DNA of 38,532 bases from Campylobacteraceae bacterium (lineage in GTDB: Bacteria; Campylobacterota; Campylobacteria; Campylobacterales; JALSKU01). The stretch lies in NCBI GenBank assembly GCA_026993075.1, contig JALWUQ010000037.1, positions 28,358-66,889 on the forward strand, written 5' to 3'. A program made the position numbers and the translations under genes. Shown piece after piece: positions 25,294-38,466 of this stretch (the stretch's first letter is position 1; each line of letters starts with the position of its first letter). Under the pieces are notes generated by a model that saw only the letters and a list, made by a program, of their open reading frames with translations, was not told the DNA's origin and ran no database searches.

Positions 25294-25340
25294 CCAAAAA
25301 GACCCTCCTGTTTTTCATGAATCAAAAAAACAAATAAATG

Positions 25341-25389
25341 GGGATAGGTGATAGTGATAGTACTTTAGGCTATCACTATCACCTATCTC
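25341..25389. repeat. Dispersed palindromic element copy 1
   Basis: GATAGGTGATAGTGATAG (25343-25360) / CTATCACTATCACCTATC (25370-25387), 18-bp perfect arms, 9-nt loop. Confidence 0.85.
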
Positions 25390-25414
25390 TTAAGAGTTAG
25401 AAATGGAGTAAATC

Positions 25415-26563
25415 ATGAAAACTGATTTGATAGATTGGGAAATACTTAGAAAAGAGATTCCTGCTTGTGAAATGTATACTTACCTGAATAATGCCGGACG
25501 GGGACCGGTGTCAAAAAATGCATCTATTGGGGGGATATCTTATTACGAAGAAGCACTAAAATACGGCAATGCGCATTGGGACAAATGGGCGGAAAAATCT
25601 GTGAAAATCCGTGAAAATGTTGCAAAACTAATCGGTGCAAATTCATGTGAAATAGCATTTCTGCCCAACTCATCGCTTGGTATGAATTATATAGCAAAAA
25701 TACTTGATAATACCGGTGAAGTTCTTATGAGTAGCGGTGAGTTTCCATCATGTTCACTGCCTTGGATACAGTGTGGCTATAAAGTAAATTTTATAAATCC
25801 GCAGAAAAATGGTAAAATTTCAATAGATCAGTTTGCTTCAAATATCACACCTTCAGTTAAAATCATCGTTGTAAGTCATGTTCAATTTGCGACAGGATTT
25901 CGCCAAAACCTAGAGGAATTAGGAACTCTTTGTAAAAATTCCGGGATTCATTTGGTGGTAGATGCGAGTCAATCTGCCGGAGCATTTCCTATAAATGTAT
26001 ATTCTAGCAATATTGGTTTTTTGGTATTTACTGGATACAAATGGATTAATGCAGGATGTGGCATATCCACTTTGTTTATCAATAAAAAATTTCATGATTC
26101 AGCTAACTTTCCTGTAGTTGGCTGGCGAAGTGCAAAACAGCCATACGAGTTGATAAACGATAGATTAGATCTAGTTAACAATGCAAGTGCATTGGAGTTA
26201 GGGCACCCACAATTCCCAAATATCCTTGCCCTTGGTGGTGCAATAGAAACCCTTCAAAAAATCGGCATAGACAACATTGCTAAAAGAATCCATCACTTGA
26301 CGGACTATCTTCATAAACAATTAAATAATCATAAAATCAAGATAATTTCTCCACTTAAACAAGATGAAAGGTCAGGCATAACATCTTTAGAGATGCCAAA
26401 TGCAAGTGATGTTGTAAAAGAGCTAAGAAAAAATGATATTATCGTTGCAAAAAGAGGCGAAGGTATTCGTATTTCTCTACATTATTACAATAATCAAAAT
26501 GATATAGATAGGTTTATAGAAATTTTAAAAACTCAAAAATTTATACTATCACCAGACCCTTAA
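25415..26563 (+). CDS. Aminotransferase class V-fold PLP-dependent enzyme
   Basis: YLNNAGRGPVSKNA, IGANSCEIAFLPNSSLGMNYIA, LVVDASQSAGAFPINVY, FTGYKWINAGCGISTLFI (PLP Lys). Confidence 0.9.
   Translation: MKTDLIDWEILRKEIPACEMYTYLNNAGRGPVSKNASIGGISYYEEALKYGNAHWDKWAEKSVKIRENVAKLIGANSCEIAFLPNSSLGMNYIAKILDNTGEVLMSSGEFPSCSLPWIQCGYKVNFINPQKNGKISIDQFASNITPSVKIIVVSHVQFATGFRQNLEELGTLCKNSGIHLVVDASQSAGAFPINVYSSNIGFLVFTGYKWINAGCGISTLFINKKFHDSANFPVVGWRSAKQPYELINDRLDLVNNASALELGHPQFPNILALGGAIETLQKIGIDNIAKRIHHLTDYLHKQLNNHKIKIISPLKQDERSGITSLEMPNASDVVKELRKNDIIVAKRGEGIRISLHYYNNQNDIDRFIEILKTQKFILSPDP
26542..26563. repeat. Dispersed palindromic element, half copy 2 (reverse orientation), overlapping the aminotransferase 3' end
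   Basis: TATACTATCACCAGACCCTTAA is the reverse complement of TTAAGGGTCTGGTGATAGTATA. Confidence 0.7.
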
Positions 26564-26609
26564 GCCTTTCTTCTCTATCTATTCTCCTTGATATTCTAGA
26601 CGCACCAAC

Positions 26610-26642
26610 AAATGGGGATAGTGCGCTCTATCATCAGTCCCC
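26610..26642. repeat. Imperfect palindrome probably related to the dispersed element
   Basis: AAATGGGGATAG (26610-26621) is identical to 25336-25347 at copy 1; GATAG/CTATC stem and GGGG/CCCC ends. CTATCATCAGTCCC reverse-complements to GGGACTGATGATAG. Confidence 0.5.
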
Positions 26643-26649
26643 ATAAGCT

Positions 26650-27300
26650 TTAAAAAATTATCATCCCTACTGTAAGTAATAACAATCCTGCCATTGTGAT
26701 ATTAAATATTCGTACTTGTATAGGGTACATAAGAAGTCTCTTGATTTGCTTGCCGATTAAAGCCCACATAAGTATAGCAATAAAAATACTAAGCATTGAG
26801 AGTGCGACAGCGACCATTAGACTTATCCAGTAGTGCTTAGGGATTATATAAACATTGATCGTTGTTAGTGCTCCTATCCAAGCTTTAGGATTGATCCATT
26901 GAAATGCAACTGACTGCCAAAAATTAATCGGCGAAATATTATCCTGCGATAAGATCTCTTCATTAGTAGGTGTAGCGGCAATTTGCCATGCAAGATAAAC
27001 GACATAGATGATACTAATATATTTTAATATCAAAAAAAGAGTAATGTACCTATCCATCAATGGGCGAAGCACCAATCCTATAAGCAAAAGCATTACAGGA
27101 AAACCAACTAATACTCCAAATAGATGAGGAAGTACTTTATAATATCTATGGTTAAAACCGATACTCATAGCAATGATATTGTTTGGACCAGGTGTCAATC
27201 CTATTATGGCAATAAATAGTGAAATTGCGATAAGCCAATTCCAATCCACAAAAATTCCTTTTTTAAACGATATTATAGCTTGTTTTGCAAAATTCCGCAC
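26650..27300 (-). CDS. LysE family translocator
   Basis: IGLTPGPNNIIAMSIGFNHR, AFQWINPKAWIGALTTI; start may be downstream (VDWNWLIAIS, about 27249). Confidence 0.9.
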   Translation of the reverse strand: MRNFAKQAIISFKKGIFVDWNWLIAISLFIAIIGLTPGPNNIIAMSIGFNHRYYKVLPHLFGVLVGFPVMLLLIGLVLRPLMDRYITLFLILKYISIIYVVYLAWQIAATPTNEEILSQDNISPINFWQSVAFQWINPKAWIGALTTINVYIIPKHYWISLMVAVALSMLSIFIAILMWALIGKQIKRLLMYPIQVRIFNITMAGLLLLTVGMIIF

Positions 27301-27354
27301 AATATAAAATATGGTACAATATCACCAGCCTCCCCTCAAAGCCAAAGGAGAATA

Positions 27355-28083
27355 ATGACGAATAAGCATTATGAGAGTATTGCAGAAGATTTTAATAAGG
27401 TATGGAGATTTTCAGATGAATATAAAATATGGGCTGTTGATAAAATAGGATATTATCTGGATTTAAAGAACAGTGATGTTTTTGTAGATATAGGTGGGGG
27501 TACAGGAACATTTACTAACATGATTGACAACAAATTTGAATTAAAAAAATCTTACTGTGTAGAGCCTGAATCTAAAATGTGTAAACTTGCAAAAGAATAT
27601 TCTAACTTTGAAATAATTTGTTCAGATGTATTTGGATTTTTAGATAACTTGCAGTTTGCATACAATAAAATATTATTTAAAGAGGTCATACATCATATTA
27701 AAGATAGAAAAAAGTTATGGCACAATATTTACCATACAATAGAAGATAATGGTAGAATTTTAATATATACAAGACCAAGAAATAACAAATTTCCTTTGTT
27801 CCAAAAAGCCAAAAAAGAATTTTATAAAAATCAACCACTATACTCTGAGATGGTTTTAGAATTGGAAAAAAGTAAATTTAAGACCAGTGTTTCACTTGAA
27901 AGTTTCACATTCAAATTACCAAAAGATGAATGGTATAGTATGCTTAAGTCAAGATTCATGTCCGATTTAAGTGTTTTTACAGATGATGAAATAATTCAAG
28001 GTATTGATGAATTGGAAAAAGAAAATACATCAAATCAATTTATTATAGAAGATGAAATAGTATTTATCACAGCTTATAAATAA
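27355..28083 (+). CDS. Class I SAM-dependent methyltransferase
   Basis: VFVDIGGGTGTFTNMID; KEVIHHIKDRKKLWHNIYHTIEDNGRILIYTRP. Start at 27355 with aaaggag upstream; ORF track begins at 27280. Confidence 0.85.
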   Translation: MTNKHYESIAEDFNKVWRFSDEYKIWAVDKIGYYLDLKNSDVFVDIGGGTGTFTNMIDNKFELKKSYCVEPESKMCKLAKEYSNFEIICSDVFGFLDNLQFAYNKILFKEVIHHIKDRKKLWHNIYHTIEDNGRILIYTRPRNNKFPLFQKAKKEFYKNQPLYSEMVLELEKSKFKTSVSLESFTFKLPKDEWYSMLKSRFMSDLSVFTDDEIIQGIDELEKENTSNQFIIEDEIVFITAYK

Positions 28084-28111
28084 GTCTTTCCAAAATCATC
28101 AATAAAATTTT

Positions 28112-28852
28112 CTATGAGTCTATCCAATCCTTTGCTTCTTGAAGCTGATTGTAGTTAAAATTTTTAATTTCTGCATTTACAAAATGGCTTCCGATTTTTT
28201 CTCCCAAGTCTCCGACAAAAGAGTCAGTTACAAAGGCTAGTTTTTTTATATGTTTGTGATGTTCCTTTATGAATTCCATATGAGTTATAAACGCCCCAAA
28301 TGATTTCCATCCAGGAAAATCTTTTGTATAGATGATAATACCATTTAATTTTCCATTTTCTTCAATAAACGGATCTATAAGTTCTTTTGCTTCTATAAAG
28401 TCATCCTTGCTCAAAGCTCCAAGTGGCTCAAAAATCACTGTTTTTGTTTTTCTGTCAAATGATATGTTTAAATTTGGATGAAGTACATTTTTCTTTAAAA
28501 GCCAAGCTTTAGCTTTTTCTATATCTTTATTGCTAAAAGTTTTAATTTCTCCTGGAATTGTAAAAGAAAAGCCTTTTGCAGCATCTATAATCCAGCTTAT
28601 ATCGCTAACTACAGCTATCTTTCCCCAAGCGGAGTAAAACATAAAACCAGTTTTTACATCATCTTTTAAAGCTGAAAAATCATAAGAATCAAAATCCTTG
28701 CCCACTTGATATAATACTTTGAGTTTACCATTTTCTTTGAATTTTGACTGCAATGCAGGAATAAGCGTCTTCTCATAATCTTCATCAACAACTTTACCAC
28801 TGAGTTTAAAACCTATGGCACCATTTCCGATATCGTTAATAATCTGGATCAT
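28112..28852 (-). CDS. Tandem SpoIIAA-like (STAS-related) domain protein
   Basis: Two repeats: IINDIGNGAIGFKLSGKVVDEDYEKTLIPAL... and ISFDRKTKTVIFEPLGALSKDDFIEAKELIDPFI...GWKSFGAFITHMEFIKEHHKHIKKLAFVTDS. Start placed at MIQIIND with ggagtagtaaa upstream. Confidence 0.78.
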   Translation of the reverse strand: MIQIINDIGNGAIGFKLSGKVVDEDYEKTLIPALQSKFKENGKLKVLYQVGKDFDSYDFSALKDDVKTGFMFYSAWGKIAVVSDISWIIDAAKGFSFTIPGEIKTFSNKDIEKAKAWLLKKNVLHPNLNISFDRKTKTVIFEPLGALSKDDFIEAKELIDPFIEENGKLNGIIIYTKDFPGWKSFGAFITHMEFIKEHHKHIKKLAFVTDSFVGDLGEKIGSHFVNAEIKNFNYNQLQEAKDWIDS

Positions 28853-29104
28853 TTTACTACTCCTTCCATATCTGATTTGCATACATGATAGCACAAAAAC
28901 AAAGAGGAAATCCATGGCCTTGTATTGGGCATAATCTTTATTCCCAATACCTGACCCACTCGCCGTCAGGCTATATCTCTTGTTGTCTCTTTGTTTTAGA
29001 TATACTTGAGGATATTTTTGTTACAATCGTTTTCATAAAGGCTGAGTTTTATAAGGATTTAGCAGATATAGACAGGGGTTTTGTTATAAAAAATAGGAAT
29101 AAAA

Positions 29105-31858
29105 ATGCAACTATACAACCATCAATTTAAATCAAAAGAAGATTTGGAGCAGTTCATAGATAAGTATATTTATCAAGCTAAGTCTGTTTTAGTTCAAGTT
29201 TTTTGTGGTGATTTGAATACTCGAAATATCCAAAATGTCTTAGATATTTTAAAAGAAAAGTTGTCAAATGCTAAAGTTATAGGCTCTTCAACAACTGGTG
29301 AAATCATTGGGGGACATATATATGAAGATACTATTTCCCTATCTTTTTCTATTTTTAAAAAAACAGATATCCGCATAGCTTATTATCATAAAGCAGATTA
29401 TGAAACGGGAAAAGATATAGCAAATAATTTTCTAGTTCCAAATACAAAGGCAATCATAGCTTTTAGTGAAACACTCAAACAAGATTCGGAGCTTTTTTTA
29501 GAGGGGTTTTGCTCAATTAACGATATCATACCGATAGCAGGTGGAAATGCTGGCGATAACTATAGGTTTAAAGAGACATTTGTCATCTTTGAAGATAAGA
29601 TTTGCTTTGGTGGCTTGGTAGTTTGTGCATTAGATAGCGATGTATTAAATGCTCATACAAACTATTCGCTAGAGTGGAATACTATCGGCAGTGACATGAC
29701 AATCACAAAGGCAGATGCAAATACAATTTATGAGATAGATTATATGCCAGTAGAAGAGGTGTATAGATACTATTTAGGTGATGAAATCACAGATAACTTT
29801 CCATCTAGCGTGATAGAGTTTCCTTTGGTTAAAGTTGAAGATGGCGTACAAGTAGCTAGGTCAGTTGTAACTAAAAATGAAAAAAATGGGTATATCTATG
29901 CAGGACATTTTAAAAACGGTGATAAAGTAAAGTTTGCCATAGGCAATATAGAGAGTATCCTCTCCAAATCAAACAATTTACACAACAACATCGCAAAAAA
30001 TCCTATCGAAGCTACTTTTATATACTCTTGTTCTGTTAGAAAAATGTTTATAGGAGAGCAGTTAAATTATGAGTTTGGATTGATAGAGCAGATGGCACCA
30101 ACAGCAGGATTTTTTACATATGGTGAATTTTACCATGGCAAGACAAAAAATCAACTCCTAAATATAACCACTACAACTTTGAGCCTATCTGAGTCAAATA
30201 AAGTTAAACGAAAAAAGATGTTGCCTCCTAAAAAGCACGATCGTACTATGTTAAATTCATTGGTAAATTTAGTAAATATATCCAACAAAAGACTAAATCA
30301 GTATAAAGATCTACTGGATATAAATTCGATTGTGTCAAAAGCTGATATAAAAGGAAATATAACTTATGTAAATGACAAGTTTTGTAAAATATCCGGATAC
30401 ACAAAAGAGGAGCTTATAGGTCAAAACCATAGTATTGTAAAACATCCAAATATGGATAAGGCAATATATAGAGATATGTGGAAGACGATAAGAGCTAAAA
30501 AAGTGTGGAAAGGCACCATCTTAAATCGTGCAAAAGATGGTAGTGACTACTATGTGAAGGGCATTATCATGCCAATTTTAGATGACCATGGCGAAGTGAT
30601 GGAGTATATCTCAGCAAGAACTGATGTGAGTGAGCTTGTCAGAAAAGATAAAATCATAAAAGAGCAATATAAAGATACTCTGACAGGGCTTCAAAATAGA
30701 AATTCACTAAACCACAAACTTAGTATCAAAATAGATGAAAAAGCATCTTTGATACTCATAAATATAGATAGATTTTCAGATATAAATGACTACTTTGGTT
30801 ATGAACAAGGTGACTTGGTTTTGAAAAAATTCGCATCATATATGCAAACAAAAGATATAGAAGCTTTTAGGATAAGTGGTGATGAATTTGCGATACTTTG
30901 TGAACACAGCTTGGATACAAAGACAAGAAATAGCATAATAAAAATGGTGATAGAATTAGAGAGTCATGAGTATCTATTTTCTGAAAACAATATATCTATA
31001 TTTGTATCTTGTGGAGTTGCATACGGAAACAGACTTGAAATATACAAGCAGGCTCATATTGCTCTGAAAGAGTCAAAATCATCTAAAAAACAGATAGTTT
31101 TCTATAACGACAATCAAAGCTTAGAAAGACAGATAGAGGATAATATAAAGGTAATTACAAGCATAAAACAAGGTATAAAAGAGGATAGATTTGTACCTTT
31201 TTTTCAAGGAATTGTAGATAATAAAACTAAAAAAATCATAAAATATGAGTGTTTGATTCGCTTGAAACAAAAAGATGGCAAGATAGTAACTCCATTTTTC
31301 TTCTTAGAGCATGCAAAAAAAGCAAAACTCTATACAAAGCTTACAAAAATTATGATAGCAAAATCATTTCAAAAATTCGAAAAAGAGGATTGCGAGTTTT
31401 CGATAAATCTCTCTTTGCAAGATATCTTATCACATAAAGTTGTAAGTGTCTTAATAGAGTATCTTGAAAAATATAAGTGTGGGAGCAGAGTGATACTCGA
31501 GATAGTGGAATCTGAAGGTATTGAGGATTTTGATGAGTTGTTGGTTTTTATAAAACAGGTAAAGAGATATGGATGCAAGATAGCAATCGATGATTTTGGA
31601 ACGGGGTACTCTAATTTTGTTTATTTGGCTAAATTAAATGCAGATTTTGTCAAGATAGATGGCTCACTAATCAAAGATATCAACAAAAACGAATCGCAAC
31701 TTGCAACTGTTGAGAGTATTTTACACTTTACCAAAAAGATGAATATAAAGACTATAGCAGAGTTTGTAGAGGATAAAGATATATTTGATATTTTATGTGA
31801 TTTAGGTGTCGATTTTTCACAAGGGTATCTATTTTCAAAGCCTTGTGAAGAGCTGTAA
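29105..31858 (+). CDS. FIST-PAS-GGDEF-EAL protein
   Basis: FIST N/C (KVIGSSTTGEIIGGHIYEDTISLSF; FSCSVRKMFIGEQLNYE-type), PAS (YVNDKFCKISGYTKEELIGQNHSIVKHPNM), RISGDEFAILCE, IAIDDFGTGYSNFVYL. Confidence 0.9.
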   Translation: MQLYNHQFKSKEDLEQFIDKYIYQAKSVLVQVFCGDLNTRNIQNVLDILKEKLSNAKVIGSSTTGEIIGGHIYEDTISLSFSIFKKTDIRIAYYHKADYETGKDIANNFLVPNTKAIIAFSETLKQDSELFLEGFCSINDIIPIAGGNAGDNYRFKETFVIFEDKICFGGLVVCALDSDVLNAHTNYSLEWNTIGSDMTITKADANTIYEIDYMPVEEVYRYYLGDEITDNFPSSVIEFPLVKVEDGVQVARSVVTKNEKNGYIYAGHFKNGDKVKFAIGNIESILSKSNNLHNNIAKNPIEATFIYSCSVRKMFIGEQLNYEFGLIEQMAPTAGFFTYGEFYHGKTKNQLLNITTTTLSLSESNKVKRKKMLPPKKHDRTMLNSLVNLVNISNKRLNQYKDLLDINSIVSKADIKGNITYVNDKFCKISGYTKEELIGQNHSIVKHPNMDKAIYRDMWKTIRAKKVWKGTILNRAKDGSDYYVKGIIMPILDDHGEVMEYISARTDVSELVRKDKIIKEQYKDTLTGLQNRNSLNHKLSIKIDEKASLILINIDRFSDINDYFGYEQGDLVLKKFASYMQTKDIEAFRISGDEFAILCEHSLDTKTRNSIIKMVIELESHEYLFSENNISIFVSCGVAYGNRLEIYKQAHIALKESKSSKKQIVFYNDNQSLERQIEDNIKVITSIKQGIKEDRFVPFFQGIVDNKTKKIIKYECLIRLKQKDGKIVTPFFFLEHAKKAKLYTKLTKIMIAKSFQKFEKEDCEFSINLSLQDILSHKVVSVLIEYLEKYKCGSRVILEIVESEGIEDFDELLVFIKQVKRYGCKIAIDDFGTGYSNFVYLAKLNADFVKIDGSLIKDINKNESQLATVESILHFTKKMNIKTIAEFVEDKDIFDILCDLGVDFSQGYLFSKPCEEL

Positions 31859-32033
31859 AACTTTTTAGTAATTCTTAAATATAAATGATAATAGCTTATA
31901 CTGTAGCATCAGCTATATATAAACGGGGTCTGGAGGAATTTGTACCAATGAGTTTGGAGGTTATGATTTTCAGCGGTGTTTTAGTAGGCTAAATATATGG
32001 TAGACAATATCAATAAAAGGAATAATAAAAAAT

Positions 32034-32720
32034 ATGTTACCAATAAGTGAAATTTTTTACTCTTTGCAAGGAGAGGGTAAATATTGCGGAGCTCCTTCAA
32101 TATTTGTAAGAGTTGGAGGATGTAATCTTAGGTGCAAATTTAACAATAAAAGATGTGATAGTTATTTTGCAGTTGAGAGTTATTATAAAAATAGTTGGAA
32201 AAAAACTTCCATGGATAAAATAAAAAAAGAGATTAGAAAATATAAAAAATATCATCCCTCACTTGTTTTAACAGGTGGTGAGCCTATGCTTTATTATAAA
32301 AATTTGTATGAATTGATTAAATGGTTTGATGGAGATATTACGATAGAAACAAATGCTACGGTGGATGTAGATTTTGAAAAATATCCTGATTTTAAAAATG
32401 TAATTTTTGCTATGAGCGTAAAGCTATCAAACTCAAAAGTGCCTTATCACAAACGAATAAAAAAAGATGTTATCAAAAAATATGTGAAATATGCGAAAAA
32501 ATCTTTTTTTAAATTTGTTGTTGATAAAAAAACAGATAATAAAGAGATAAAAAAGATAACAAAAAATATTAATTTGCCTATATACTGTATGCCTCTTGGA
32601 GAAAATGAAAAAGAGTTGAAAAAAAATGCCAAATATGTTTTCTCTTTTTGTATGAAAAATGGCTATAATTACTCAGATAGAATTCATATTAGAATTTTTG
32701 ATGATAAAAGAGGGGTTTGA
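32034..32720 (+). CDS. queE: 7-carboxy-7-deazaguanine synthase, radical SAM
   Basis: ISEIFYSLQGEGKYCGAPSIFVRVGGCNLRCKFNNKRCD; SLVLTGGEPMLY; directly followed by queD-like gene. Confidence 0.88.
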   Translation: MLPISEIFYSLQGEGKYCGAPSIFVRVGGCNLRCKFNNKRCDSYFAVESYYKNSWKKTSMDKIKKEIRKYKKYHPSLVLTGGEPMLYYKNLYELIKWFDGDITIETNATVDVDFEKYPDFKNVIFAMSVKLSNSKVPYHKRIKKDVIKKYVKYAKKSFFKFVVDKKTDNKEIKKITKNINLPIYCMPLGENEKELKKNAKYVFSFCMKNGYNYSDRIHIRIFDDKRGV

Positions 32721-33305
32721 ATGATTATCAGAAAAGAATACAATTTTGAAAATGCTCATATAGTAAGAGAATGTTCTACTTTGAGATGTAGTCAAAATAT
32801 ACATGGTCATAGTTATAGAGTTGAGATTAAGATAGAATCAAACTTTTTGGATAATGCCGGAATGGTGCTTGATTTTGGTTTGATAAAAATATCTATAAAA
32901 GATATCATAGAAAGTTTTGACCATAGTATTACTTTATGGAGCAAAGATGATCAAGAATATATAAAATTTGCAAAAAAATTTAATCAAAGATATGTAGTTT
33001 TGCCTGTAAATCCCAGTGTAGAGCAATTTTGTAGAGTTTTTTTTCTCGCAGTTGATCGTATTTTAGAACAAACAAAGTTTATAAATGGAGAAAAAAATGT
33101 TAAACTTCACTCTATCATAGTCCACGAAACTGCTACAGGATATGCTGAATGTTTTAGAGAAGATGCTTATAATTTTAAAAATATGGGTGAAATTGATTTA
33201 AAAGATATAGAGTTTTCAAATGCTATCAAAAATGATTGGAAAGATAAAAATCTTTGGAGAAAAATCTTGAATAATGGGATTTTTATAAATCCAAAATCAG
33301 TATAA
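32721..33305 (+). CDS. queD: 6-carboxytetrahydropterin synthase (QueD/PTPS family)
   Basis: FENAHIV...CSQNIHGHSYRVEIKIE, GMVLDFGLIKISIKDIIESFDHSITLW, VHETATGYAECF. Confidence 0.9.
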   Translation: MIIRKEYNFENAHIVRECSTLRCSQNIHGHSYRVEIKIESNFLDNAGMVLDFGLIKISIKDIIESFDHSITLWSKDDQEYIKFAKKFNQRYVVLPVNPSVEQFCRVFFLAVDRILEQTKFINGEKNVKLHSIIVHETATGYAECFREDAYNFKNMGEIDLKDIEFSNAIKNDWKDKNLWRKILNNGIFINPKSV

Positions 33306-33318
33306 GAAAAAATTATAA

Positions 33319-33360
33319 GGGTCAGGTGATAGTAATAGTATAAAATACTGTTACCTGACC
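33319..33360. repeat. Dispersed palindromic element copy 3
   Basis: GGTCAGGT...ACCTGACC outer arms, inner AATAGTAT/ATACTGTT; lies between convergent queD and the chemoreceptor gene. Confidence 0.8.
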
Positions 33361-33385
33361 ACAAAAGCCTAAGTGGGTTTTCCTC

Positions 33386-35527
33386 CTACTGACTCTTCTT
33401 TTCTCTTAGGAGTTGATTTAGTATCTTAAAGAGCTCGCTGGAGTTTTTCTCCCAATCTTTGGCAAGAGTTAAAATCTCATCAGCTTTTTCTATGGTTTGA
33501 TTTGTTTTTATATATTTAAGCATCTCTTTTATGATATGGTGTACATTTTTGTGTGGATTGGCAATAGTTGGGTAAGAAGGAAGTTTTCCATACTCTTTTA
33601 CTATCTCACTACTAGTATACCATTTTCCAAATCTACAACTGTTTTCATCATCAAACTGAGTGTTACCGTTTTCTTTATATATGGCTTGGTAACCTTTTGA
33701 TTTAAATATCATATGATCTATTTTTACAAGCGTCAAATAAAGCTCATTTGCTATATCTTCATTTTTCTTTTTGGTTATTCTTGAGCTTTCTATGAGACTA
33801 TCCAAGGTGTGTGTAAATTCATTTAATTTTTCAGTTGATTCAGTTGTGATATGCTCGGTCTTTTCATTGCTTTCAAGCATTTCGTTGGAGTTTTGTTTGA
33901 GTATATTGATGTTGGCTTCAACTTCTCCTGTCGCTTTTTGGGTTCTCTCAGCCAGTTTTCTTACCTCATCGGCAACTACTGCAAAGCCTCTTCCATGTTC
34001 TCCTGCTCTTGCTGCTTCGATGGCAGCATTTAGAGCTAAAAGATTAGTTTGGTCTGATATATCTTTGATAAGAGATATTACATTGCTTATCTCTTCAACA
34101 TTTTGATTTACCTGTTCTGAGCTCTCTTTTGCTCCATGCATCATTTCTGCTATAGTATTTATATTTTCTACTATATCATTGACACTTGTTTGTACATCAC
34201 TTACAGTCTTTTCAGCCTCTTCATTTATACTGTTTATCTCATTTATGCTCTCTATATTGCCTGTAAGTGAATCTTGAAGATCTGAGGCGTCATGAGTAGA
34301 GCCATCTATAAGAGTATCCGCCAAAGAGGTAAAGAGTTTGCTTTTTTCAAGATTTGCTCTTGCCTCTTTTTCTGCTGCACTTGCTATCTTGGCTTCCTTT
34401 TCAGCCTCGTTTGCTATCTCTTCAACTTTTTCAATAAATTGATTAAAATTATGTATAGCTTTTCCTATCTCATCATTTGATTTTATGTCAATTCTCATAG
34501 AAAGATCTGCATCTCCCTCGGCTAACTCTTGACTTACTTTTGCCAAGTTATTGATAGGCTTGATTACAATCTTGTTCAATGTAAAGAGTATGATTAAAAG
34601 AATAAGAAGATCAAGTATGCCTATGAGCATGATTTGCTCTTTTAGTTTTGAAATATTTTTATCGATAAGTTTATTGATATATTTACTTTTGATCCCCATT
34701 AAAGCATAGCCTATAGTTTTTCCATCAAACCTTTTTAGTGGGTATGCTTTTGTAAAATATCGGCTATCTATTACATATTTATCATTGATAGCTTTGCTAA
34801 GACTGAAACTATTTGATAAAATATAGTCTAAAAATGCTTTATCTATATGCTTTGTACTTGATAGCGGATAACCCTCTTTTTTATATTTTATCTTTTTCAC
34901 CATAGATGCAAAATTTTTATCTAAAAAATATAAAAAATCTACCTTGTTTTTTTTCAATGCTTTTCCAAAGTTATTTATACCTCCACTAAAATCAAGCAAA
35001 GCTATAAGTTTTCCATTATTGTTTATAGGAAAAATACTTCTTAGTCTTAATCCTTTTGGAGATTCTTCAAAAGTAGTAATAGGCTTTTTTGTTTGCAAAA
35101 CCTGCTTGTAAGATTTAAGCTCAACTTTCTCCCCAAAGCTATCAGGCTTCCAAGACTTTATGATAGATTTTAAATCTTTTGAAATTATTTGTACATTTAC
35201 TTTCTTAAAAGGAGTATTTTTTTTGTAAAGCTTACCGATGCCTGCCAAAAGAGTCTTTAGAGACTCTCTGTTATTATTTAAAATATCATCTTTTAGTTGA
35301 TTATTTCTAGCCAAAAGCATTGCATTTGTCATCCAAACATTCTTTTTTGATGCAATTTGTCCATCTAACATCATAACTTTCAGATCTCTTGCTTTGCTAG
35401 TATATATTTCTTCTTTTAGATTATTTATACCAATAAATTCTCTAAAAGCAAATACTAAAAAACCAAGTAGTATAACTGCTATGATAGGTATCTGCATTTT
35501 TTTATTAATAGATAGATTTTTGTACAT
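33386..35527 (-). CDS. Methyl-accepting chemotaxis protein with periplasmic sensor, HAMP and C-terminal CZB zinc-binding domain
   Basis: [49 protein letters not shown]-like [11 protein letters not shown]...SCRFGKWY...[15 protein letters not shown]. Confidence 0.93.
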
Positions 35528-35555
35528 TTTTACCCTTTTTTATTTACTATTTAGT

Positions 35556-36308
35556 TTATCTTTGCTTTTTATATTTACTGTAACCATATTTTTCAAATAT
35601 ACCGATACCTTTTTTTGAACTAAGAAATTTTAAAAAATCCATAGCCGAATGGTTTAAGTTTCCCTTTTTTGATATGGCATATCCTTGAATAATAGGTGGA
35701 TAAAGAGTTTTATCCGCTAAAATATGCGTTATCTTTTTTTTATCAAACATTGCAAGAAATGATGTCGGTATAAAGCCTATATTGTGACTCCACAATACTT
35801 TATCTACAACCAATCCTACATCATTGACATATTTTACTTTACTTTTTATTTTATTATATATCCCTATTTTCTTCAAAAATGCTATGGTAGCTTTTCCATA
35901 AGGAGCATACTTGGTATTTGGGATAATAATAGATAATGAAAAGTTTTTTTGCAAGTCATATACACTGCTGATAGAGTTTTTTGGTGCAACCAAGACTAAA
36001 AAACCTCTGATATACGGGTTTGCAGGCAAGAGAGCCAATCCTTTTTTATATAACTTTTGTGGATAACTCATATCTGCTGACAAAAAAATATCATAGTCGT
36101 TGCCATTTAGTATTTGTTTATAAAGATATCCTGAAGATCCATACTCTATATGTACACTGTCATTTGGATATTGCTGATAAAAAGCTTTTATCATATCTAT
36201 AAAAACATACTCAAGATTGCTTGAAGCATAGATTTTTGCATAATTCTCTGCCATTAAACAAGTTGTACTGAAAAAAATAGATAAAATTAAAATAAATAAC
36301 TTTTTCAC
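35556..36308 (-). CDS. ModA-like periplasmic substrate-binding protein
   Basis: Signal peptide; IYASSNLEYVFIDMIKAFYQQYP, YGSSGYLYKQILNGNDYDIFLSADMSYPQKL, PNTKYAPYGKATIAFLKK. Confidence 0.82.
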   Translation of the reverse strand: MKKLFILILSIFFSTTCLMAENYAKIYASSNLEYVFIDMIKAFYQQYPNDSVHIEYGSSGYLYKQILNGNDYDIFLSADMSYPQKLYKKGLALLPANPYIRGFLVLVAPKNSISSVYDLQKNFSLSIIIPNTKYAPYGKATIAFLKKIGIYNKIKSKVKYVNDVGLVVDKVLWSHNIGFIPTSFLAMFDKKKITHILADKTLYPPIIQGYAISKKGNLNHSAMDFLKFLSSKKGIGIFEKYGYSKYKKQR

Positions 36309-36371
36309 ACCAAGTCCTTACACAAAGTATAGTATATATAAATTTAAGTAAAATAAAGATAAAATCTACTT

Positions 36372-38114
36372 ATGAGTGCAAAAAATAAATTTATCAATAA
36401 GATTGCATTTTATGTTATCTTGGCATGGACTCTTTTGATAGCTGTTATCATGAGCATATATGTCAGACAAAACTATACTTATGCGCTCTCTCTTGCTATA
36501 AGTGAAGCCAGGACAAGCACAAGAAAAGATTTAGCTTATAGAAGCTGGGTAGCTTCACACGGGGGAGTTTATGTGCCCATTACAAAAGATACCCCACCCA
36601 ATCCATACCTTGCCCATATAAAAAACAGGGATGTCATTACAAATGCCGGACAACATTTAACCCTGATGAACCCGGCCTATACACTTGCTCAAATGATGCA
36701 AGATTACTCCAAACTTTATGGAGTAAAAACACATATCACGAGTCTGACACTTTTAGATCCTGACAATGCACCTGATACTTGGGAGAAAAAGGCTTTAAAA
36801 AAGATAGAAAAAACTAGAAAACCTGTCATAGAAAAAGCAGAGATAAAGGGCAAACCTTACATAAGATACATGAACCCACTCGTAGCCAAAAAATCATGCT
36901 TAAAGTGTCACGCTTTTCAAGGATATAAAGTCGGAGAGATAAGAGGTGGAGTTTCAGTAGCTGTACCTTTGAAAGATTTTTATAAAAATGCCTTTGAGCA
37001 GTCGATAACTGATGTGCTCACTATTGCTATCATATATTTTCTTGGATTGTTTGCTATATTGTATGGCAAAAAGATAGCCATCAAAACACTGAATGAAAAG
37101 ATAAAAGATTATGAACAGCATATTTATTCACTTGTAAGCATGATTGAAAAAAGAGACAGTTATACCGCAGGTCATACAAAAAGGGTTGCACACTACAGTG
37201 TACTTATAGCAAAAGAGATGGGCTTTAAAAATGAGAAACTTGAAGATTTAAATAGAGCCAGTATGTTACATGATATCGGTAAGATAGTAATACCTGATTC
37301 TGTTTTGCTAAAACCCGGCAAACTAAATCCGTTGGAATATGATATCATCAAAGAGCATGTTGAAGTTAGCTATGAACTTTTAAAAGATATTGATATTTAT
37401 AAAAATATTGCCAAAATAGTAAGATACCACCATGAAAGATATGATGGTTCAGGATATCCTTTTGGTTTAAAAGGTGACAAGATACCTTTACCTTCACAGA
37501 TAATGGCAGTAGCAGATGCATTTGATGCCATGACAACAAATAGAATTTATAAAACTAAAAAGAGTATAAAAGAGGCTATAAAAGAGTTACAGAGTTTAAG
37601 TGGAAAACAGTTTCATCCGCAAGTTGTAAATGTGGCCATACAAGTTTTAAGTAATATTAAAGTAGATAAGAATGTAACACAATTACCAAAAACAAAAATG
37701 GAAAAAGAGAGATTTGCATACTATTTTAAAGACAGGGTTACAGAGGCATTTAATAAAGACTATCTTGAATTTGCACTCTTGTATAATCATACCAATGAGT
37801 TTGATTATGATTATCTCTATAAAGTTAACCTGCACAATTTTACGCAGTACAATAAAAAATATAGCTGGGAGAGTGGAGATATTTTACTGATGAAGTTTGC
37901 CCATACACTTATAAAAATATACCATAATGGCTTGATATTTAGAATACATGGGGATGACTTTATGATAGCTTCAAGAGAAAAACTTGATTTTGATAAAGAT
38001 ATGAAAGTATTGGAGCAAGTTTTAAAAGATACCGGAGTAACACTATCTTGCAAATATTATGATATGCAAGAACACAACATAACAAATATCATAGATATTA
38101 AAAACTTGGATTGA
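36372..38114 (+). CDS. DUF3365-like sensor with CxxCH heme motif, HD-GYP and C-terminal degenerate GGDEF
   Basis: KSCLKCHAFQGYKVGEIRGG; MLHDIGKIVIPDSVLLKPGKL...HHERYDGSGYP; FRIHGDDFMIASRE. Confidence 0.88.
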   Translation: MSAKNKFINKIAFYVILAWTLLIAVIMSIYVRQNYTYALSLAISEARTSTRKDLAYRSWVASHGGVYVPITKDTPPNPYLAHIKNRDVITNAGQHLTLMNPAYTLAQMMQDYSKLYGVKTHITSLTLLDPDNAPDTWEKKALKKIEKTRKPVIEKAEIKGKPYIRYMNPLVAKKSCLKCHAFQGYKVGEIRGGVSVAVPLKDFYKNAFEQSITDVLTIAIIYFLGLFAILYGKKIAIKTLNEKIKDYEQHIYSLVSMIEKRDSYTAGHTKRVAHYSVLIAKEMGFKNEKLEDLNRASMLHDIGKIVIPDSVLLKPGKLNPLEYDIIKEHVEVSYELLKDIDIYKNIAKIVRYHHERYDGSGYPFGLKGDKIPLPSQIMAVADAFDAMTTNRIYKTKKSIKEAIKELQSLSGKQFHPQVVNVAIQVLSNIKVDKNVTQLPKTKMEKERFAYYFKDRVTEAFNKDYLEFALLYNHTNEFDYDYLYKVNLHNFTQYNKKYSWESGDILLMKFAHTLIKIYHNGLIFRIHGDDFMIASREKLDFDKDMKVLEQVLKDTGVTLSCKYYDMQEHNITNIIDIKNLD

Positions 38115-38122
38115 TTCACTCA

Positions 38123-38150
38123 GGGTCTGGTGATAGCATAAGTAATAAGC
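38123..38150. repeat. Dispersed palindromic element, half copy 4
   Basis: GGGTCTGGTGATAGCATAAGTAATAAGC, 9 nt after the HD-GYP stop. Confidence 0.7.
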
Positions 38151-38334
38151 AAGGCAAGGTAAAACTGTCTAATTTGCCTTACAATCTAATATAGTGAAGA
38201 TAGGTGATTTCAAAGTTGAATTTAGTTAATTATTATTTGGTGAATTATAAGAAAAAGTAGAAAATTATACACCTATTTTTTTGATTAAATCTAATTATTC
38301 TATAAAATCATTGATATGCCACAAATATTATTCT

Positions 38335-38394
38335 ATTTTTGTGATAACATGTATGTAAATCAAACATCAAGGGAGTAATAAAATGATTGAGATT
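38335..38394 (+). pseudogene. Remnant of promoter/RBS/start of a paralogue of the SpoIIAA-like gene
   Basis: 48/60 ungapped identity by hand with the reverse complement of 28841-28900, including RBS and ATGAT..AGATT; reads only MIEI* before entering a repeat element. Confidence 0.65.
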
Positions 38395-38443
38395 TAAGGG
38401 TCTGATGATAGTAATAGTATAAGGTGCTATCACTATCACCTAT
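38395..38443. repeat. Dispersed palindromic element copy 5
   Basis: TAAGGGTCTGATGATAGTAATAGTATAAGGTGCTATCACTATCACCTAT; arms GATGATAGTAATAG / CTATCACTATCACC. Confidence 0.8.
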
Positions 38444-38466
38444 AAAAGAAGTTGGTATATAACTCA

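Follow-up and report, generated by a model that had tools for sequence, protein, structure and literature searches.

TIRYTs are among the commonest Y1 transposases. In TIRYT/TIRtron elements (Di Nocera 2013, PMC3733652), a RAYT-like Y1 transposase gene lies between long terminal inverted repeats (TIRs) that have GGGGWSAS tips and overlap the 3' end of the coding sequence, and the TIRs form moderately abundant families of singles, dimers, or groups. The TnpA-Y1 transposases of subclass 2.1 (Quentin 2018, PMC6006769), which have NHYH and Y---NP motifs, a C-terminal HTH, and a length of ~240–260 aa, are common in epsilonproteobacteria and have no REPs; their equation with TIRYTs was left unconfirmed in that study, and both defining papers (PMC3733652, PMC6006769) left open the movement of TIRYTs or their TIRs.

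The repeat family analysed here resembles TIRYT/TIRtron elements in all of these respects, having a Y1 gene between inverted TIRs, a TIR repeated as singles and dimers, and a tip, GGGGTCAG, that agrees with GGGGWSAS; this sequence family and Campylobacterota hosts were not found described in PMC3733652. It appears to be a TIR family of TIRYTs and fits TnpA-Y1 subclass 2.1 in the NHYH and Y---NP motifs of the predicted transposase, whose HTH matches are weak. Beyond PMC6006769, the present analysis documents the ends, an insertion, and dimer derivatives of this subfamily and recovers GGGGTCAG ends in several other subfamilies. REPINs and REPs with RAYTs (PMC3116915, PMC2817692) have in common with it a linked Y1 transposase and an organisation as short non-autonomous inverted pairs between genes, whereas the present family has no GTAG-tagged hairpin unit and comprises ~19–26 units, not hundreds. 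A Y1 HUH transposase, an AT-rich conserved flank beside the end, and the lack of an established TSD are shared with IS200/IS605 elements, from which the family differs in that its ends are mutually inverted repeats instead of separate subterminal hairpins, with no tnpB. Membership in IS200/IS605 was rejected (NF033573, 24 bits against a cut-off of 55; ends not self-complementary).

Repeat sites in the window

The window, a stretch of 38,532 nucleotides, corresponds to positions 28358–66889 of contig C37 in the 1.9-Mb, 88-contig genome of an uncultured Campylobacterota bacterium (the host, G000). The five main repeat sites of the initial annotation were all recovered as members of one dispersed family, and its statement that the copies are confined to the last 13 kb of the window holds: a 23-position sequence model matched 25340–25362 (+), 25370–25384 (−), 26544–26559 (−), 33319–33340 (+), 38123–38136 (+), 38398–38419 (+), and 38425–38441 (−), and nothing below 25 kb. 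A paired model recovered three full hairpins (25338–25393, E=8e-16; 33316–33365, E=2e-9; 38395–38450, E=8e-12). Folding as single-stranded DNA agreed with the description of full copies as hairpins, with −17.9 kcal/mol and z=−9.9 for 25336–25395, z=−4.0 for the copy at 33312, and a weaker z=−2.1 for that at 38393.

The full inverted TIR dimer at 25340..25388 (+) forms a hairpin with 18–20 bp arms and the loop TACTTTAGG, retains in its left part the ACTTTA motif of the transposon left end, and has an orthologous dimer on contig C206 of the sister species G003. The half element at 26544..26563 (−), a single TIR unit detected with the sequence model, has a tip made up of the last codons of the aminotransferase ORF 25415–26563, running into its stop. 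Starting 11 bp past the stop of the PTPS gene, the full dimer at 33319..33358 (+) was found by both models and by folding, and its right arm is 6 nt shorter by deletion. A further half element (38123..38136, +) lies directly past the stop of the HD-GGDEF gene 36372–38114, and the full dimer at 38397..38443 (+), matched by both models and with unpaired outer arms, runs on into contig C4; the window end and C4:1–127 overlap exactly over 127 bp, so that the window continues into C4. Another exact 127-bp overlap, between the end of C63 and C43:1–127, shows that C63 continues into C43.

The weaker relatives proposed initially fared less well. The possible decayed dimer GGGGATAG...CTATCATCAGTCCCC at 26610..26642 (no strand assigned) is a relic at most, because neither model matches it and its folding does not exceed that of shuffled sequences (z=−1.4). 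The relative placed at 31926–31933 is a tip-only candidate, the 9-nt GGGGTCTGG at 31925..31933 (+), weak on sequence alone, yet adjoining a synteny break, with G003 homology resuming 20–30 bp away. The site proposed at 28951, corrected to 28950–28957, belongs to a different TIR family (GGGTCAGGTATTGGGAATAA), of which a relic (GGGTCAGGTATTGGGAATAA..., with palindromic GTATTGGG/CCCAATAC) occupies 28920..28957 (−). This second TIR family (GGTCAGGTATTGGGAATAA), represented in the window by the palindromic relic, is linked to another TIRYT subfamily (L077; L206 around 1360).

The radical SAM and PTPS gene pair at 31954–33312 of the window is 94% identical to a region of contig C54 of the congener G001, with abrupt edges and otherwise unrelated flanks; it is a candidate for horizontal transfer, bounded by TIR elements in the host.

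Repeat unit and its distribution

Rather than the hairpin, the basic unit is an asymmetric 23-nt end, GGGGTCAGGTGATAGTRATAGYA (consensus GGGGTCAGGTGATAGT(G/A)ATAG(T/C)A), which occurs alone or as an inverted pair (dimer). The two units of a full dimer are separated by 0–10 nt, and the shortest dimer is a 44-bp perfect palindrome; the single unit shows no fold (z=−0.5) and the dimers fold, the strongest with z=−11.7. The pattern GGTCWGGTGATAG gave 13 exact or one-mismatch matches in the host genome versus 0 for the reversed pattern, and a chance origin of the repeats is ruled out by such controls. At E≤1, the unit model matched 25 sites in G000, 26 in G003, 24 in G002, and 10 in G008, and 0–2 in each of five other congeners, which is the chance level; in the host, ~19 units remain at E<0.1 after two duplicates from the 127-bp contig overlaps were dropped. 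The unit had no match in any of 51 searched genomes from the order's other families. With clear significance, the family is limited to four congeners, namely the host and three sister species. Rfam gave no match at the window copies, nor any repeat-related family elsewhere, so that the initial impression of a family without a name stands at the sequence level; the kind of element, however, has already been named TIR/TIRtron/TIRYT (PMC3733652).

Parent transposon and its mobility

Two sister species contain the intact parent, an ~860-bp element with the unit as its TIR and a gene for a 259-aa Y1/HUH transposase. In G002 and G008 (loci L045/L046), inverted unit copies flank the 259-aa protein, which contains a Y1_Tnp domain (Pfam E=4e-15 and 3e-16), the NHYH and YIEQNP motifs, and weak C-terminal HTH matches; a linked Y1 transposase, raised as a prospect in the initial annotation, is thus present in sister species between inverted units. 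The right end overlaps the transposase gene, with TACTATCACTATCACCTGACCCC encoding ...TITIT and the stop TGA, and the stop codon therefore sits inside the TIR (ACT ATC ACT ATC ACC TGA CCCC, TITIT*). Other subfamilies with different TIR interiors likewise show CC-TGA-CCCC, their proteins ending in NSKFKP* and KVEP*. Further TIRYT loci or fragments with the same ends were found in other Campylobacterota MAGs. Plasmid TIRYT relatives are at most 40% identical and none has this TIR; GGGGTCAG ends surround three of the four distant plasmid relatives inspected, and the fourth (L322) has AGGGTCAG upstream and no right end that could be seen. Phage records gave no significant match.

The dimers contain ACTTTA, a motif located just inside the transposon left end, and therefore look like left-end/right-end fusions, i.e. 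MITEs; as short non-autonomous copies, they share both ends, LE (with the ACTTTA motif) and RE, with the autonomous element. The cognate TIRYT was not detected in the host genome, and the host copies appear orphaned because its two Y1 genes are only ~45% identical and lack these ends. The partner gene is either absent or unassembled, possibly on a missing contig, and the host copies are probably immobile relics.

The gyrA and comF genes are nearly contiguous in G000, G001, G003, G004, and G007, and are separated by a longer spacer in G006; in G008, an ~860-bp TIRYT unit is inserted between them. The TIRYT units have homologous interiors and non-homologous flanks in a pairwise inner/outer flank comparison that is dominated by transposase genes and serves solely as evidence of scattered contexts. 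Its insertion at gyrA–comF in one species, and the unrelated surroundings in which it is found elsewhere, show that the unit has moved. Every genome here is a fragmented MAG, so that some junctions could be assembly effects; at gyrA–comF, ~20 bp of extra flank is present, and neither a clean empty site that defines a target or duplication nor insertion polymorphism of a miniature copy within a species was seen.

Building on the directly observed identity of the ends, the transposase-bearing parent in sister species, the gyrA–comF insertion, and the scattered contexts, it is very likely that the family consists of the TIRs of a TIRYT transposon (RAYT-like Y1/HUH, IS200-like transposase, GGGGTCAGGTGATAGTRATAGTA ends) and that these remain as single ends, as MITE-like left-end/right-end hairpin fusions, and as pairs bounding small genes.

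Tip signatures and gene turnover

Of 94 tips, 35 have ATA immediately outside them (3.7 expected; p=7e-12 for A at −1), a conserved flank of the sort expected if a Y1 enzyme prefers a particular sequence for cleavage or as its target. Next to the tip, host DNA often forms tandem duplications of 7–15-bp units that end at the tip or run through GGGGTCA. Direct repeats of at least 10 nt were present at 18 of 94 tips versus 5 of 1220 displaced controls (p=1e-17), and at 11 of 59 tips versus 2 of 932 controls among sites at least 300 bp from sequence ends.

Where aligned, G003 and G000 are 93–97% identical. Over six stretches compared with this one relative, collinearity breaks (HSP edges) occurred in 8 of 9 element-bearing versus 4 of 22 element-free intergenic regions (Fisher p=4.8e-4), regions with weak half copies, including the sole element-bearing exception, being scored as element-bearing; six of the eight break edges are within 14 bp of a tip. 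These gene-context and synteny counts are small and come from selected stretches, not from all contigs. For example, a dimer follows the FGGY kinase gene in both genomes and is succeeded by an aminotransferase gene in G000 versus a methyltransferase gene in G003, and the place of the FIST-GGDEF-EAL gene of G000 is occupied by a dimer in G003. In G003, two units of the same orientation enclose a nucleotidyltransferase gene and a small ORF, both of which G000 has lost in a deletion that runs inwards from the tip. The E3 deletion starts at a tip and ends inside a gene at TAAAA microhomology, and on G003 C164 an XRE-type gene is located between two units. Neither the tip duplications, nor the ATA flank, nor the link to synteny breaks was found in PMC3733652, whose text contains neither 'duplication' nor 'target site'; within the literature searched, the tip-abutting duplications and the gene-content breaks at elements are new here.

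Proposed mechanism and alternative explanations

Related Y1 enzymes form 5'-phosphotyrosine links and free 3'-OH ends (PMC8266576). In the proposed mechanism, TIRYT would nick single-stranded DNA at the tip (..ATA^GGGG, i.e. TATA^GGGGTCAGG) and would carry miniature copies in trans. Slippage of the free 3' end at the nick, followed by repair and re-joining, could produce the tandem flank duplications, and re-joining after slippage may also give junctions with foreign or deleted DNA. We propose only tentatively, and regard as somewhat improbable, that tip nicking by TIRYT actively drives rearrangement through slip-and-rejoin duplications, one-ended joins, and deletions, that orphan ends act as local hot spots for the gain and loss of small cassettes, and that the topA-linked dead paralogue described below may be a domesticated binder of this or a related DNA. 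The family offers a parent element with its derivatives and an insertion, a conserved flank from which the nick site is predicted, and tip duplications as a scar that can be counted; it also connects orphan ends with the turnover of genes between closely related genomes.

There is a considerable, if less than even, chance that the elements are instead passive, the breaks arising from homologous recombination between copies, or elements and breaks both gathering in permissive intergenic regions. Elements flank several breaks on both sides (G003 C206 and C156), as this would predict, and the variable regions also contain attC-like sequence and other repeats; however, the breaks sit at the outer tip and not anywhere in the repeat, homologous recombination between dispersed 23–50 bp repeats is not expected to give tip-abutting duplications, and the E3 deletion has one end at a tip and the other inside a gene at the microhomology.

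Host-selected RNA hairpins at gene 3' ends, terminating transcription or protecting mRNA as the initial annotation had suggested, are an unlikely explanation. Many copies do lie just past stop codons (11 bp, 4 bp, or overlapping) and some fold strongly, and the reported concentration at 3' ends fits the data, in which divergent intergenic regions are few or absent, without reaching significance at this number. Against a terminator role, the intrinsic-terminator signature of a GC stem and then a U-run was found at no copy, no copy being followed by a U-run or carrying terminator-like sites. Half copies have no fold, and copies are missing in five of nine congeners. Covariation is weak, and the suggested selection on structure gains only slight support from it: 173 of 500 shuffles match the 5 of 21 pairs with two-sided change, although such cells were numerous in total (7/500); pairing can be kept without any need of selection because both arms start as copies of one TIR.

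The original label of REP/MITE-type elements is apt for the MITE-like dimers and the Y1 transposase linked in sister species, but not for REPs in the strict sense. Classical GTAG-type REP/BIME elements moved by a RAYT are very unlikely, in spite of inverted pairs between genes and of a related transposase, which scores 65 bits with NF047646 REP_Tyr_transpos (cut-off 80): the unit neither has a GTAG/GTGG foot nor forms a hairpin (z=−0.5), and the ends overlap the CDS stop as TIRs do. Integron attC sites or other cassette borders, brought to mind by attC-like sequence on C63 downstream of one copy and by small toxin/antitoxin-like genes between copies, are scarcely credible, as by inspection the unit lacks the attC core (GTTRRRY/RYYYAAC) and is the end of a Y1 transposase gene.

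Related genes and other repeat families

At C63:12730–12900 of the host (L196), attC-like sequence and then small toxin/antitoxin-like genes are located directly outside a TIR tip, a possible integron cassette array. A TIRYT/RAYT paralogue of the host (C56:4337–5134, L062) has orthologues in L063–L065 and L068–L070, and is upstream of topA in six of the seven, the topA position being not established for L063. At least one catalytic residue is lost in all seven species (HUH changed to DHYYLL, NESYQF, THYLLL, or DRYYIL; Tyr to His or Phe), and the ORF is intact, with 265–266 aa and dN/dS of 0.05–0.10; the protein is probably domesticated and non-catalytic.

A second abundant repeat family of ~125 bp (CTGACCTTACGCACT...AGTGCGTAAGGTCAG) occurs at C45:16650–16776 of the host (L202) and in L253–L261; none was seen in the window, and Rfam gave no match for the L253 copy. 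As RNA, it has a three-branched fold of −50.6 kcal/mol, and ~40 matches are listed in G003.
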